From assembly GCA_903835265.1 (NCBI GenBank), contig CAILMG010000163.1, forward strand, positions 1-39,823: 39,823 nt of DNA, in the 5' to 3' direction. Source of the DNA: an uncultured Methylococcus sp. Its GTDB lineage: Bacteria; Pseudomonadota; Gammaproteobacteria; Methylococcales; Methylococcaceae. This document shows positions 25,804 through 31,278 of the stretch, piece by piece. A model generated the notes under the pieces. The model was not told the origin of the DNA. It worked only from the letters and a program-made list of their open reading frames with translations, and made no database searches. The position numbers and the translations under genes are program-made. Every line of letters begins with the position of its first letter. Position 1 is the stretch's first letter.

Positions 25804-27105
25804 TCACCCCTCGGCTTCCTTTCCGCCTCCCCATTGATGAAAGGCGCGATGATCAAGTGATCGAATGGCGATGAGGGCGATGATAAAGAGCATCGCAAGG
25901 TAGGCCCCGAAAAGCCCAAACGCATGATCGACCCCTAATCTTCGCAGTAAGAAAGCGATGAGCAGCGGCGCGGTGCTCCCAAAGATCGGCGAAGCTAGAT
26001 TGATGGCGATGCTGACACCGGTGTAACGGACTTCCGTTCCAAAGAGCCCGGTGACAGCGGCAAAGGCGGCGCTGGTGTAAAGGCCTAAGAGGACACTAAA
26101 GGTCAAGAAGGTGAACAAAATCGGGGTGTCGCCGAAGAATCCCGACATGCCAAGGGTTAGAGGATAGCTCAACACCAAGAGGCATAAAGCACCCACGACC
26201 AAGACACTATTATAGCCAAAGCGATCAGCGTGTGTGCCGCCCACCAGGGTCGTGGCAAGCGATAGCGTCAGACCTAAGGTCGTTGTCAAAAGCGCCCGGG
26301 TCGCCTCGAAATGCAAGGACGAAATCATGAAACTGTTGAAATAGACAAAGGCGAAGAAAAAACCACAGGTCATCGGCGTTAGAACGGCGACCCCTAAGAG
26401 GACGCGACGCTTGTAGCGTTTGATGATGGTTCCAATTGGATTATGGATTAGACGGTCCTCGGTCTTTGCGATTTCATAGAGAAGACTTTCCGGCATTTTT
26501 TGACGAATTTTAAGGCCTAGCCAGGCGGCAGCCAGGCCAAGGATAAAAGGGATGCGCCAGCCCCAAAGGGTAAAATCGGCCTCGCTTAAGATCAATGAAA
26601 GACCGCTAGAAAGAAGGGTGCCTGTGAGAAGCCCCAGGCAGGTGCTGGCCTGGATGAGGCTCGAGGCCAAGCCGATCCGCCGCTTCGGTGTATGCTCGAG
26701 GACATAGGTCACGGCACCGCCCATTTCCCCTCCAAGGGCCAAGCCCTGGAGAAGACGCAAGATCACCAGAAGGATGGTGGCGGTGATTCCGATGTTTTCA
26801 AAGGGGGGCAGGAGGCCGATGGCAGCGGTCGGAAGAGCCATCCCCATGATCGAGAGTGACAGCGCTTTTTTGCGCCCAAAGCGATCGCCGATGGCGCTAA
26901 AGATCAAGGCCCCGATGGGCCGCATGAAGAAACTAACGCTAAAGACGGCAAGGGCGGCTAGGACGGCGAGACCTTCTTCCTCCTTGGGAAAGAATGTCTC
27001 GCCGATAAAGACCGAGAAGTGGCCGTAAAGGGCAAAGTCATACCACTCGAGGGCATTGCCAATAATGCCGGCGATCAGCGCTTTCTGGGTAAGTTTGTTC
27101 ATCAT
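25804..27105 (-). CDS. MFS transporter, metabolite:H+ symporter (MHS/ProP-like) family
   Basis: 433 residues, about twelve membrane helices. The N-terminus GIIGNALEWYDFALYGHFSVFIGETFFP is the classic MHS-subfamily signature, and the MFS loop motif GDRFGRKKALSLSI follows. RLLQGLALGGEMGGAVTYVLEH is the matching helix-4/5 block. Relatives import proline, betaine, citrate, ketoglutarate or shikimate with protons; the C-terminal coiled coil used by ProP for osmosensing is absent, so an organic-acid or amino-acid substrate is more likely. It lies between gpsA and the DUF2062 gene, all on the minus strand. Confidence 0.92.
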   Translation of the reverse strand: MMNKLTQKALIAGIIGNALEWYDFALYGHFSVFIGETFFPKEEEGLAVLAALAVFSVSFFMRPIGALIFSAIGDRFGRKKALSLSIMGMALPTAAIGLLPPFENIGITATILLVILRLLQGLALGGEMGGAVTYVLEHTPKRRIGLASSLIQASTCLGLLTGTLLSSGLSLILSEADFTLWGWRIPFILGLAAAWLGLKIRQKMPESLLYEIAKTEDRLIHNPIGTIIKRYKRRVLLGVAVLTPMTCGFFFAFVYFNSFMISSLHFEATRALLTTTLGLTLSLATTLVGGTHADRFGYNSVLVVGALCLLVLSYPLTLGMSGFFGDTPILFTFLTFSVLLGLYTSAAFAAVTGLFGTEVRYTGVSIAINLASPIFGSTAPLLIAFLLRRLGVDHAFGLFGAYLAMLFIIALIAIRSLDHRAFHQWGGGKEAEG

Positions 27106-27170
27106 TGAGCTGCGTGATGGAGGGCTTGAGCGAACCTCGTCCGGGTGGCTTAGCCCGTTCGGGATTTCAT

Positions 27171-28181
27171 TCAGGGACTCAAGGGGTGAGCTTCCGGCTT
27201 AGGCTCTCTAAGAAGCAAGTTGTTGACCGCCTCCCGAGGGGGCAGTCCCTCATAGAGGATCCGGTAAATCTGTTCGGTAATCGGCATTTCGATCTGGTGA
27301 CGCTTCGCGAGTTGATAGACGATACGGGCTGTCGGGATCCCTTCGATTTCTTGTCCGATCGACTGCATGATACTGGCGGGATCAAGGCCGCGGCCAAGGC
27401 CCACCCCAAAACGCCGGTTTCTGGATTGATTGTCCGTACAGGTCAAAATGAGATCACCAACCCCTGATAGGCCCATCAGCGTTTCAGGTTTTCCCCCGAG
27501 GGTGGTCCCAAGACGAATCATTTCGGCCAGTCCTCGAGTAATCAGCGCGGCACGAGCGTTTGCGCCATAGCCGAGCCCGTCGGCCACCCCGGCGGCGATG
27601 GCGAGTACGTTTTTAATGGCTCCTCCGAGTTCAACGCCCATGACGTCGGGGCTCGTATAGGCCCTGAACTTCGGGTGATGTAAGAGCCTGATAAGGTCCT
27701 CAGCAAACGCCTCACAGGTTGACGCCACGGTGATTGCAGTGGGTTGGCCTAGGGCCACTTCGCCAGCAAAGGTGGGACCCGAGAGAACGGCTGCCGGCGT
27801 CTCCCTGCCGAGGTGTTCGGCGACGACTTGGTGGAGGGGGTGGCCGCTCTCGAGTTCAAGACCTTTGGTGGCCCAGGCGACTCGAGTTCCTGTCTTGAAG
27901 AGGGGCTTTAACTGATGGATCTGGGATCGAAAGGCATGGCTTGGTACAACGATCAGCCACAGGCGTGCATGGGCCGCAGCAAGCTCTAGATCGTGACTCA
28001 CCCGAAGGTTGTCTGGGAAGTCGATACCTTGGAGGTAACGCTCATTGGCGCGCGCCCTTGAGAGGGCATCGATGTGATCCTTCTGGTGACCCCAGAGCAG
28101 CACGTCATGACCATTTCGAGCCAGGACCAAGGCGAGGGCCGTCCCCCAGGAGCCGGCCCCAAAGACAGTAATCGGCGTCAC
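27171..28181 (-). CDS. gpsA: Glycerol-3-phosphate dehydrogenase [NAD(P)+]
   Basis: 336 residues, normal length. It begins with GTG at 28181 (GTG ACG CCG), directly giving the nucleotide-binding VFGAGSWGTALA. Further hallmarks are ATKGLE, SGPTFAGEVA, the catalytic Lys in GGAIKNVLAIAAGV and GLSGVGDLILTCT. It makes sn-glycerol-3-phosphate from dihydroxyacetone phosphate for phospholipid synthesis. It follows secB by 60 bp, the conserved secB-gpsA order of gammaproteobacteria. Confidence 0.97.
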   Translation of the reverse strand: MTPITVFGAGSWGTALALVLARNGHDVLLWGHQKDHIDALSRARANERYLQGIDFPDNLRVSHDLELAAAHARLWLIVVPSHAFRSQIHQLKPLFKTGTRVAWATKGLELESGHPLHQVVAEHLGRETPAAVLSGPTFAGEVALGQPTAITVASTCEAFAEDLIRLLHHPKFRAYTSPDVMGVELGGAIKNVLAIAAGVADGLGYGANARAALITRGLAEMIRLGTTLGGKPETLMGLSGVGDLILTCTDNQSRNRRFGVGLGRGLDPASIMQSIGQEIEGIPTARIVYQLAKRHQIEMPITEQIYRILYEGLPPREAVNNLLLREPKPEAHPLSP

Positions 28182-28241
28182 CGAAGGATGGCTCTAATGG
28201 GACGTTGCCATGAGCGAACTGGAGCCATCTGGTCGGTTTCC

Positions 28242-28712
28242 TTAGTGACTCGTGACAGACTCTGGGTTCTGCTGCATCTGCTGAAGGTGTTGCGCATAGA
28301 GCCCATCGAAGTTGACTGGGGCCAATAGCATCGGGGGGAAGCCGCCTTTGCTGACCAGGTCCGAGACCACTTCGCGGGCATAGGGGAACAGCAGGTTTGG
28401 GCAGTAGCTACCGAGGAGGTGACCCATTTCTTCGCTGGCAAAGCCCATGGCGCTGAAGATGCCGGATTGGGTGATTTCAACCAGGTAAGCCGTTTTCTGG
28501 GTGATTTTCACGGTCAAGGTCACCGTGAGGCTGACCTCATAAACGTTATCCTGGACCTGAACCGCACTGCTGCTGAGGTTGAACTCAACTTCAGGTTCCC
28601 AAGTCAGGGTGAAGATGTCGGGTGAATTGGGGGTTTCAAAAGAGACATCCTTGACGAAGATCTTCTGAATGTTGAACTGACGTTCTGCCTGCGTAGCGTT
28701 TTCCTCGGCCAT
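28242..28712 (-). CDS. secB: Protein-export chaperone SecB
   Basis: 156 residues. The tetrameric cytosolic chaperone that keeps preproteins unfolded and hands them to SecA. The family blocks are present: FNIQKIFVKDVSFETPNSP, then LTVTLTVKITQKTAYLVEITQSGIF, then LLGSYCPNLLFPYAREVVSDLVSKGGFPPMLLAPVNFDGLY. The C-terminal tail is Gln-rich and lacks an evident SecA-binding basic patch. It lies between the rhodanese gene and gpsA. In enterics a glutaredoxin gene (grxC) sits between rhodanese and secB; here only 63 bp separate them. Confidence 0.96.
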   Translation of the reverse strand: MAEENATQAERQFNIQKIFVKDVSFETPNSPDIFTLTWEPEVEFNLSSSAVQVQDNVYEVSLTVTLTVKITQKTAYLVEITQSGIFSAMGFASEEMGHLLGSYCPNLLFPYAREVVSDLVSKGGFPPMLLAPVNFDGLYAQHLQQMQQNPESVTSH

Positions 28713-28775
28713 GATATTTAGTTGATAACTGGTTGGATGAAGTGAAAGAGAGTGGGGCGCCTTACGTCGAGTGAC

Positions 28776-29225
28776 TTACTTGCGTTTCTTAGTGACGGGA
28801 AGATTTTGATCCTTCCAGGCAAAGAGACCGCCCTTGAGTTCGTAGACTTGAGTGAAGCCGAGGCCGGTCAGCTTTTTGCCAGCGGCGAGGGACCGGGTTC
28901 CGGACTGGCAGGTCACAATGACGGCGGAGGCTTTGTGGCTATCCAGTTCTACGGCCCGTTCGTCGAGCTTGCCGAAAGGGATGTTTCTGGCGCCTTCAAT
29001 GTGTCCTTCGGCAAATTCAGCGGCTTCTCGAACATCGACTAGGAGCGTGGCATCGTCATTCAAAAGGATAACGGCTTCCGAGGGGGAGACCATCTGGTGC
29101 TTTCTGAAGAGGTTGTCCAAGATGTCTTGGATCAGAAGAATGGTCACGAGAAAGAGCGCGCCGGCCATGAGGTAGTGATGACCGATGAATTCAAGCAGTT
29201 GATCAGGGCTGATATTGAGGTTCAT
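28776..29225 (-). CDS. Membrane-anchored rhodanese-like sulfurtransferase (YibN-like)
   Basis: 149 residues. One N-terminal membrane segment (YLMAGALFLVTILLIQDIL) is followed by a single rhodanese domain with LLVDVREAAEFAEGHIEGARNIPF and the persulfide-carrying active-site loop VTCQSGTRS (the Cys is the acceptor). It probably moves sulfane sulfur at the cytosolic face of the inner membrane. It lies 24 bp after an ArsR-family regulator that has the persulfide-sensor cysteines, and before secB, as with yibN in E. coli. Confidence 0.92.
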   Translation of the reverse strand: MNLNISPDQLLEFIGHHYLMAGALFLVTILLIQDILDNLFRKHQMVSPSEAVILLNDDATLLVDVREAAEFAEGHIEGARNIPFGKLDERAVELDSHKASAVIVTCQSGTRSLAAGKKLTGLGFTQVYELKGGLFAWKDQNLPVTKKRK

Positions 29226-29249
29226 GTGGGTGTCCGGTGTTGGAAGAGG

Positions 29250-29558
29250 TTAATTGAGCTCAGGGCAAAAGACGTCACGCATCAGTGTGATCAGCTTTAG
29301 GGTTCTTTTATCGTCCACATAATAGAAGACCCGATTGGATTCCTTGCTGCTCCCAAGAATTCCCTTCTCCCTTAAAATTGCGAGATGTTGCGAAATATTA
29401 CTCTGCGTCGTGCCGCAGGCATCAACGATTTCTTGGACACTGGCGCGTTCCTCGCCGAGTAGACAGAGAATTTTGAGCCTGAGCGGGTGTGCCATGGCCT
29501 TGATGCAATAAGCAGCTTGAGCGATGTCCTCTTCGCGGTTGATCAGATCTTCCTTCAT
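29250..29558 (-). CDS. ArsR-family regulator, SqrR/BigR-type persulfide sensor (predicted)
   Basis: 102 residues from the ATG at 29558; a TTG at 29600 in the same frame would add 14. The winged-helix domain is typical (AMAHPLRLKILCLLGEE, then VQEIVDACGTTQSNISQHLAILREKGIL, then RVFYYVDDKRTL). Cys32 (in LKILC) and Cys98 (in RDVFC) sit at the positions and with the 66-residue spacing of the two redox cysteines of SqrR and BigR, which form a tetrasulfide link on exposure to persulfides and release DNA. The metal-binding CxC of classical ArsR is absent. It probably represses its own gene and the rhodanese gene 24 bp downstream. The residue comparison is from memory. Confidence 0.85.
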   Translation of the reverse strand: MKEDLINREEDIAQAAYCIKAMAHPLRLKILCLLGEERASVQEIVDACGTTQSNISQHLAILREKGILGSSKESNRVFYYVDDKRTLKLITLMRDVFCPELN

Positions 29559-29733
29559 GTCATTCGATATTTCCTGGAGACGTCCTCCATCAGGCTCCAA
29601 GGAGGGCCAGAGTGACGACGAGCGAGTGAAAAACAGCTAAAATCGAGTCAGTGGGGTCATTGAGACATCACGCCCCATCAAGATCCACGCCCTATCGCTC
29701 AAGTTCCATAAGAACTCAGCCGGAGATTATACG

Positions 29734-31278
29734 TTGAACTCGCATCGCCCTAAACCCGTAGTTTTGATAATCCTCGATGGATTCGGCTATAACGAATCAA
29801 GCCAATACAATGCGATCGCACAAGCTAAGACGCCAAATTGGTCCGGTTTGTGGGCGACTTGCCCGCACACCCTGATCGAATGTGCCGGTGAAACCGTTGG
29901 GTTGCCGGATGATCAGATGGGCAATTCGGAGGTGGGGCATCTTCATCTCGGGGCCGGACGCCTCATCAATCAGGATTTCACCGCCGTCAATAAATCCATC
30001 CGAGATGGATCGTTCTTCACCAATCCGCAACTGACAGCAGCGGTCGACAAGGCCCTAGCGGCTGACAAAGCATTGCATATATTTGGCTTGCTCTCGCCGG
30101 GTGGCGTTCACAGCCATGACCTCCATATTCAGGCGATGGTGGAATTGGCGGCCAGAAAAGGTCTTAAGAAGATCTATATGCATGCTTTTCTCGATGGCCG
30201 CGACACCCCGCCACAGAGCGCTAGGGATTCCATCGTGGGCCTTGAGGCCACGTTCAAGAAAGTGGGTACAGGCCGTCTTGCTTCAATCGCCGGTCGGTTC
30301 TTCGCCATGGATCGGGACAACCGATGGGATCGTGTTGAGAAGGCCTATGAGCTCATCGTTGAAGGCACAGGGACGTTTACCGCAGGCTCCGCGTTGGAGG
30401 GGCTGGATGCCGCCTATGCGCGCGGTGAAACAGATGAGTTTGTGGAGACCACCCTGATTCTTCCTCCGGGGGAATCCCCGGTGCACTTGGAAGATGGCGA
30501 TGCCGTGGTGTTTATGAACTTTAGAGCCGATCGGGCTCGTGAAATCACCAAAGCGATCAACGATGAGGTCTTTTCAGGCTTTCAGCGCCGCGCGGTTAGA
30601 AAGCTTGGCACCTATGTCACCTTGACCGAATACCATCAGGACTTTACTTATCCGATCGCTTTCCCGCCGGCATCGATCACCCAAACGTTGGGGGAGGTCC
30701 TCGCAGACCATGGCCTCACGCAGTTACGGCTGGCTGAAACTGAAAAATATGCCCATGTGACGTTCTTTTTCAATGGCGGCAAGGATGAACCTTTTGACGG
30801 CGAATCACGAATCCTTATTCCATCACCTAAGGTCAAGACCTATGACCTTCAGCCTGAGATGAGTGCCGTTGAGGTGACCGATGAGATGGTGAAAGCGATT
30901 GAGAGCGGTGTCTACGACGTCATTATCTGTAATTACGCCAATGGGGATATGGTTGGACATACCGGCTTCATGGATGCAGCGATTAAAGCGGTCGAGACCC
31001 TCGATGCAGCCTTGGGCCGAATTGTGACCGCTCTCGATAAAGTGGGTGGTGAACTGTTGGTCACCGCGGATCACGGCAATGTCGAACAGATGGTGGATCC
31101 TGATACGGAGGTCGCGTTGACCCAGCACACCACGTTCCCGGTGCCCTTCCTCTACCGAGGCAAGCGCGGCCGGACGCTCGCCGATGGGGGGAATCTGGCA
31201 GACGTTGCGCCGACCCTCCTCGAAGTCCTTGGGATTGAAAAGCCGGTCGAAATGACCGGGCGTTCGTTGCTTCTCTAA
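29734..31278 (+). CDS. gpmI: 2,3-bisphosphoglycerate-independent phosphoglycerate mutase
   Basis: 514 residues, normal length. It interconverts 3- and 2-phosphoglycerate in glycolysis and gluconeogenesis with two Mn ions. The start is a TTG at 29734 with GGAG about 8 bases upstream. Metal and catalytic motifs: LDGFG (Asp15), MGNSEVGH with the phosphorylated Ser65, [21 protein letters not shown], and the C-terminal [10 protein letters not shown]. envC follows 15 bp later and ctpA after that, the standard gammaproteobacterial order. Confidence 0.97.

Follow-up and report, generated by a model that had tools for sequence, protein, structure and literature searches.

All known ArsR-family sensors of reactive sulfur are reported to fall into one network cluster (SSN cluster 4) and to carry their cysteines in helices α2 and α5 (PMC10509353). 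The nearest model for the gene pair described here is E. coli ygaV-ygaP. YgaV is reported to be a sulfide-responsive repressor of its own ygaV-ygaP operon, with a cysteine pair that forms a tetrasulfide (PMC9774250). As in the present locus, a two-cysteine ArsR lies directly before a membrane rhodanese on the same strand in YgaV-YgaP, with a gap there of 9 bp. For YibN, the rhodanese of the secB-gpsA row, co-purification with SecYEG (PMC8082313) and an interaction with YidC (PMC12282094) have been reported.

The window, i.e., the whole stretch of 39,823 nucleotides analyzed here, originates from a draft genome of an uncultured Methylococcus sp. (2.45 Mb, 310 contigs). ORF calls placed arsR, yibN, secB, and gpsA in this order on its minus strand, with gpmI divergent:

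29250..29558, minus strand: arsR, 102-aa predicted ArsR-family winged-helix repressor, counted from ATG (ORF, translation, Pfam, NCBIfam, AlphaFold2)
29463..29465, minus strand: Cys32 codon of arsR, in helix α2 (helix 25–34 in the model; Cys in 232/232 aligned proteins)
29265..29267, minus strand: Cys98 codon of arsR, one residue past helix α5 (helix 84–97 in the model; Cys in 230/232)
28776..29225, minus strand: yibN, 149 aa, N-terminal hydrophobic stretch (by eye) and rhodanese domain (Pfam Rhodanese, 4.2e-21)
28242..28712, minus strand: secB, export chaperone (ORF; homologues found at this position in relatives; named after its E. coli counterpart)
27171..28181, minus strand: gpsA, glycerol-3-phosphate dehydrogenase, GTG start (ORF; order as in relatives and in the E. 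coli annotation)
29734..31278, plus strand, divergent: gpmI, cofactor-independent phosphoglycerate mutase, TTG start (ORF; E. coli gpmM is divergent from yibN)

The ATG start of arsR is a presumed one, the mechanical ORF opening at a TTG 14 codons earlier. A rhodanese 24 bp after the regulator had been predicted originally, and this was correct: the gap measures 24 bp (29226–29249) and the rhodanese is the membrane rhodanese YibN. The next gaps are 63 bp (yibN-secB) and 60 bp (secB-gpsA). This gene order is shared with the E. coli gpmM/yibN-grxC-secB-gpsA-cysE region, in which gpmM is likewise divergent, except that the E. coli K-12 row has no arsR in the gap and has grxC added. The window rhodanese is not a YgaP orthologue, since its gene context is that of yibN and the domain order differs (read from sequence, the rhodanese domain comes first and the membrane part last in YgaP, the opposite of YibN). 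The YgaV-YgaP locus also has no secB-gpsA. At E 0.001, the only match to the window ArsR in its own genome was the window ArsR itself, and the nearest named match, among the best 80 of 525, was 80% identical (Methylococcaceae bacterium, L046). By eye, the segment 36195–38346, some 7 kb away from arsR, contains a gene for a sulfite/nitrite reductase hemoprotein accompanied by a small ORF, likely serving sulfate assimilation.

The window ArsR matched Pfam HTH_5 (2e-12) and NCBIfam HTH_metalloreg (78.5 bits, cut-off 55). It aligned with BigR from Xylella over nearly its whole length, but did not reach the BigR equivalog NF040642 (63.3 bits, curated cut-off 155); the bifunctional Blh model gave no match above its cut-off in any of the six genus genomes. 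Its cysteines lie at positions 18, 32, 48, and 98, with a Cys32–Cys98 distance of 66. In HMMER alignments, Cys32 and Cys98 coincide with cysteines of YgaV (38% identity over 87 residues), HlyU from Vibrio (36% over 97 residues), and BigR, and the cysteines of SqrR from Rhodobacter capsulatus (35% over 84 residues) pair with those of BigR at both positions. The alignments with all four proteins thus agree with the earlier claim that the pair is placed like that of SqrR and BigR; the target genes of SqrR differ from the genes of the window row. Among the 232 aligned proteins (208 distinct, that of the window included), position 32 was Cys in all and position 98 in 230, whereas 45 had Cys at position 18 and 8 had it at position 48; both Cys32 and Cys98 were present in 43/43 order loci. 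Because the pair is kept while positions 18 and 48 vary, its conservation in the alignment is more than chance. The CXC metal motif is absent from helix α3 (41–48, VQEIVDAC), which has one Cys in the window protein, at a position that is Val in 224/232.

The AlphaFold2 model (mean pLDDT 90.7) superposed best on HlyU (Z 16.8) and SqrR (Z 16.0), and also on BigR and YgaV; SmtB of M. smegmatis came near behind (Z 15.4). In a single-sequence search of solved structures YgaV, HlyU, and BigR came first, and a 15-row subfamily profile returned HlyU, BigR, YgaV, and SqrR, followed by NolR, PagR, and metal sensors. NolR scored near SqrR with this profile (63.7 and 65 bits), and closeness alone is therefore no proof of sensing chemistry. 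By its cysteine pair and predicted fold, the window ArsR is a putative two-cysteine repressor of the reactive-sulfur-sensor type. The ligand is not fixed by conserved cysteines alone, and the same two residues might respond to a different thiol-reactive compound or to heme (an oxidant, a disulfide, an organotin), which would make the protein a redox-, heme- or metal-linked switch; YgaV is reported to bind heme, and tributyltin to derepress its operon (PMC9774250). We consider such a signal unlikely: HlyU, a protein of the same type, is reported to be unresponsive to H2O2 and glutathione disulfide in vitro (PMC10509353), and a rhodanese is often the neighbour (102/109 fetched class loci, among the matches listed).

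ArsR matches at E 0.001, weak paralogues partly included, were present in 31/38 genomes of the family and in 158/201 genomes of the order sample. Among 45 loci fetched from family and order, 43 contained arsR-yibN and the other two were weak paralogues; 42 of the 43 continue with secB and gpsA, and one (L017) stops at the contig end. In the class, 249/369 genomes had a match at 1e-10; judged by eye, approximately 183 of these reached E ~1e-31 or better, and approximately 66 weaker ones were taken as paralogues. Loci were then compared in two samples, neither of which is a representative sample of it: 109 fetched class loci, among the matches listed (about 40 others not fetched; weakest orthologues absent from the listing), and the best 80 of 525 confirmed named loci. 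Of the 109 class loci, 102 had a same-strand yibN no more than 700 bp downstream and 72 a divergent gpmI within 700 bp upstream, so that 67 had both, 5 gpmI only, and 2 neither, and 35 had yibN with no adjacent gpmI found, a few stretches being short upstream. In the best 80 of 525 named loci, yibN was within 700 bp in 42, approximately 2.1 kb away in 3, and not in the stretch in 35; gpmI was divergent in 52, and of the 38 loci that lack an adjacent yibN, 35 were among these 52 (mostly Gallionellaceae and relatives); 25 had yibN without gpmI. Carriers with yibN in this named sample included Ectothiorhodospira, Halothiobacillus, and Dechloromonas, and carriers mostly without it Gallionella, Thiobacillus, and Acidithiobacillus. 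In one Gallionella locus (L072, 3977–7623), arsR and yibN-grx-secB are separated by a gene whose 590-aa product is a membrane protein that, by eye, resembles O-antigen ligase.

The frequency of gpmI in both samples, and above all its retention in those 35 named loci, would fit gpmI (glycolysis/gluconeogenesis) as the main target of ArsR, with yibN-secB-gpsA as a frequent bystander. To this we give little credence, as yibN was adjacent in 102/109 class loci among the matches listed, 35 of them without adjacent gpmI, and occurred without gpmI in 25 of the best 80 of 525 named loci.

Besides, 29 secB-yibN loci in class genomes had no ArsR match or only a weaker paralogue. In addition, 16 genomes of the window's order (L316–L331) kept yibN-secB-gpsA with arsR missing upstream of yibN, so the presumed sensor is dispensable. 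In several of these 16, the stretch leads from gpmI directly to yibN; in L319–L323, gpmI was not found in the fetched stretch. The statement in the original prediction that the rhodanese-secB-gpsA row has no dedicated regulator holds for E. coli K-12 and for the 29 class loci, but not in general, as seen from the ArsR-YibN linkage in 102/109 fetched class loci and in 42 of the best 80 of 525 named loci; it mirrors the E. coli layout. Since the linkage recurs in family, order, class, and named loci, the regulator is widespread, is no local oddity, and belongs to the junction of gpmI and yibN. With secB as query, plasmids yielded a single weak match, which was of no help. Among the literature titles and abstracts listed on YibN, rhodanese, secB, gpsA, and ArsR, the ArsR-YibN pair was not described; the neighbourhood supplement of the network study (PMC10509353) may already contain the linkage.

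In a maximum-likelihood tree of 49 rows (bootstrap not settled; outgroup of two very long rows), 29 YibN-group proteins and one second copy formed a single long-stemmed clade (97/100), which included rows without adjacent yibN, e.g., from Gallionella and Acidithiobacillus, and left YgaV outside. This clade, SqrR, BigR, YgaV, HlyU, and other two-cysteine proteins all branched from one polytomy. The relationship to the SqrR/BigR group, which the original prediction had singled out for checking, thus took the form of a separate, well supported clade distinct from SqrR and BigR, whose nesting order relative to them is not given by the tree. Judged from these sequences, YibN-linked ArsR appears to be an orthologous group of its own, ordinary in kind. 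The second copy (L282, genome G288) is divergent and has both cysteines; the same genome also has a normal copy (L175). The gonococcal ArsR NGO1562, reported as the norB repressor (PMC3032703), is a possible relative of the clade.

The window YibN showed 29% identity to E. coli YibN in the alignment and has the loop CQSGTRS with a catalytic-type Cys106. In an alignment of ArsR-linked YibN (204 rows, some loci present twice), the catalytic column was Cys in 201 of the 202 rows with a residue there; for secB-linked YibN from ArsR-lacking genomes, E. coli included, the Cys was present in 22/30 and lacking in 8/30. At the loop Cys position of ArsR-linked YibN, E. coli YibN (L285, 3585–4016) carries Asp, and it has a Cys across the loop, consistent with the reported location of its cysteine at the opposite side (PMC12282094). 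Both loop Cys and Arg were intact in 74/82 class loci with ArsR vs. 2/30 without (E. coli included), after dropping 24/106 and 1/31, respectively, for which SecB or YibN was not recovered. Within the window's order, the loop was intact in 21/23 loci with and 15/16 without ArsR, and a relatedness-corrected test of the link gave four independent supported pairs with a median p of 0.5. A coupling of ArsR loss to decay of the YibN loop was thus not adopted, as it does not hold inside the order and lacks significance once relatedness is corrected for. Across the class, the sequences leave the link between sensor and loop suggestive.

The intergenic region between arsR and gpmI contained the following:

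29559..29733, no strand: divergent intergenic region, 175 bp, expected to hold promoters and operator (sequence; six-region genus alignment)
29726..29731, minus strand: TATAAT, candidate −10 element for the arsR operon, putative in function, adjoining the gpmI ribosome site
29702..29716, no strand: AGTTC-N5-GAACT inverted repeat, weak candidate operator (genus alignment)
29616..29644, minus strand: conserved block GATTTTAGC..TTTTT....CG..CGTCG (single copy in 6/6 genus genomes, that of the window included, one match with a mismatch)

By eye, TATAAT was also present in the arsR-less relatives L317, L318, L319, and L331; a simple scan of 27000–30000 detected no sigma-70-type promoter (shuffles 1.3). 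In the genus alignment, TATAAT followed by GTTC-N4/5-GAAC (29702–29731) is conserved alongside the block at 29616–29644. The inner arms GTTC/GAAC of the inverted repeat are kept in 6/6 genus members with a spacer of 4 or 5, and two dyads of this size are present in the region, with an estimated two or so expected by chance. The conserved block persists without arsR in L317 (pattern) and in L319–L323 and L331 (by eye) and was therefore rejected as the ArsR operator. A role as the gpmI promoter is doubtful as well, L319–L323 having a similar sequence and no gpmI found in the fetched stretch; it is perhaps a promoter element.

Among class loci, the motif TTATTGTATAATGTT occurred at ≥15 bits in 51/72 with a divergent gpmI vs. 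4/36 without (one short locus skipped). Concentrated as it is in gpmI-divergent loci, it was not retained as a plain operator and may be partly gpmI promoter. Upstream of arsR, a dyad TATWAK-N6-MTWATA was found in 18/33 loci without gpmI (shuffles 1.2) and in 33/66 with gpmI (shuffles 1.5), its arms having been picked after inspection of the same loci, with the spacer profile and shuffles as the only guard against bias. This equal frequency also speaks against gpmI as the main target. Other spacers exceeded shuffles as well (3 and 4 without gpmI; 0, 3, 9, and 11 with gpmI), an excess that probably stems in part from recurring near-identical motifs. We regard the dyad as operator-like in sequence; near the window arsR it was absent even with two mismatches. 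The site deduced for SqrR is reported as ATTC-N8-GAAT (PMC9774250); this operator was missing from 29559–29733 with up to one mismatch allowed, and the whole window had 12 matches, fewer than in shuffles.

We propose, with moderate confidence, that ArsR is a local autorepressor of arsR-yibN-secB-gpsA that is released by sulfane sulfur bridging Cys32 and Cys98. The reduced dimer would bind a presumed operator close to the arsR promoter in the gpmI-arsR intergenic region, repressing arsR-yibN and, by read-through along a putative single transcript, secB-gpsA. When persulfide or polysulfide, the ligand we infer, accumulates, a sulfur bridge would form from Cys32 in helix α2 to Cys98 in helix α5, and the bridged dimer would leave the DNA, so that the membrane rhodanese YibN would be upregulated together with SecB and GpsA. 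HlyU, unlike the repressor proposed here, is reported to activate a hemolysin gene (PMC10509353). This proposal for the window ArsR is favoured because the Cys pair is conserved and the best structure matches are HlyU, BigR, YgaV, and SqrR, because yibN is a recurrent neighbour and ArsR-linked YibN has a catalytic-type Cys, because YgaV, ahead of a membrane rhodanese, is reported to be sulfide-responsive, and because an operator-like dyad lies upstream of arsR in other loci. It is weakened because 38 of the best 80 of 525 named loci lack an adjacent yibN (35 with gpmI), because the class dyad is absent in the window and the window's own dyad is weak, because arsR is missing in 16 order genomes (YibN loop intact in 15), and because the BigR cut-off was missed and NolR scores near SqrR.

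The gaps of 63 and 60 bp ahead of secB and gpsA could accommodate promoters. ArsR could govern itself and yibN alone, with secB and gpsA read from a promoter of their own and export and lipid synthesis outside the signal; secB and gpsA also persist where arsR is absent. This is possible, although we lean against it: in E. coli, yibN, grxC, secB, and gpsA are reported to form a single operon (PMC12282094), and simple scans showed neither a terminator-like nor a promoter-like site between yibN and gpsA. The two terminator-like sites detected in 27000–30000 (shuffles 2.7) lie within arsR and past gpsA, with none between the arsR end and gpsA.

A regulator of the sulfur-sensor type before YibN in many families, though not in E. 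coli K-12, offers a handle on this protein, as its signal would tell when YibN is needed. More tentatively, and with considerable doubt, we suggest that many Beta- and Gammaproteobacteria place the YibN-SecB-GpsA row under a dedicated sulfane-sulfur sensor that E. coli K-12 lacks, and that this sensor tunes insertion, export, and phospholipid supply. If this is true, membrane-protein insertion, protein export, and the supply of phospholipid precursors would follow the persulfide level in these bacteria; E. coli, the best-studied model, is without both the sensor and the canonical YibN loop cysteine.
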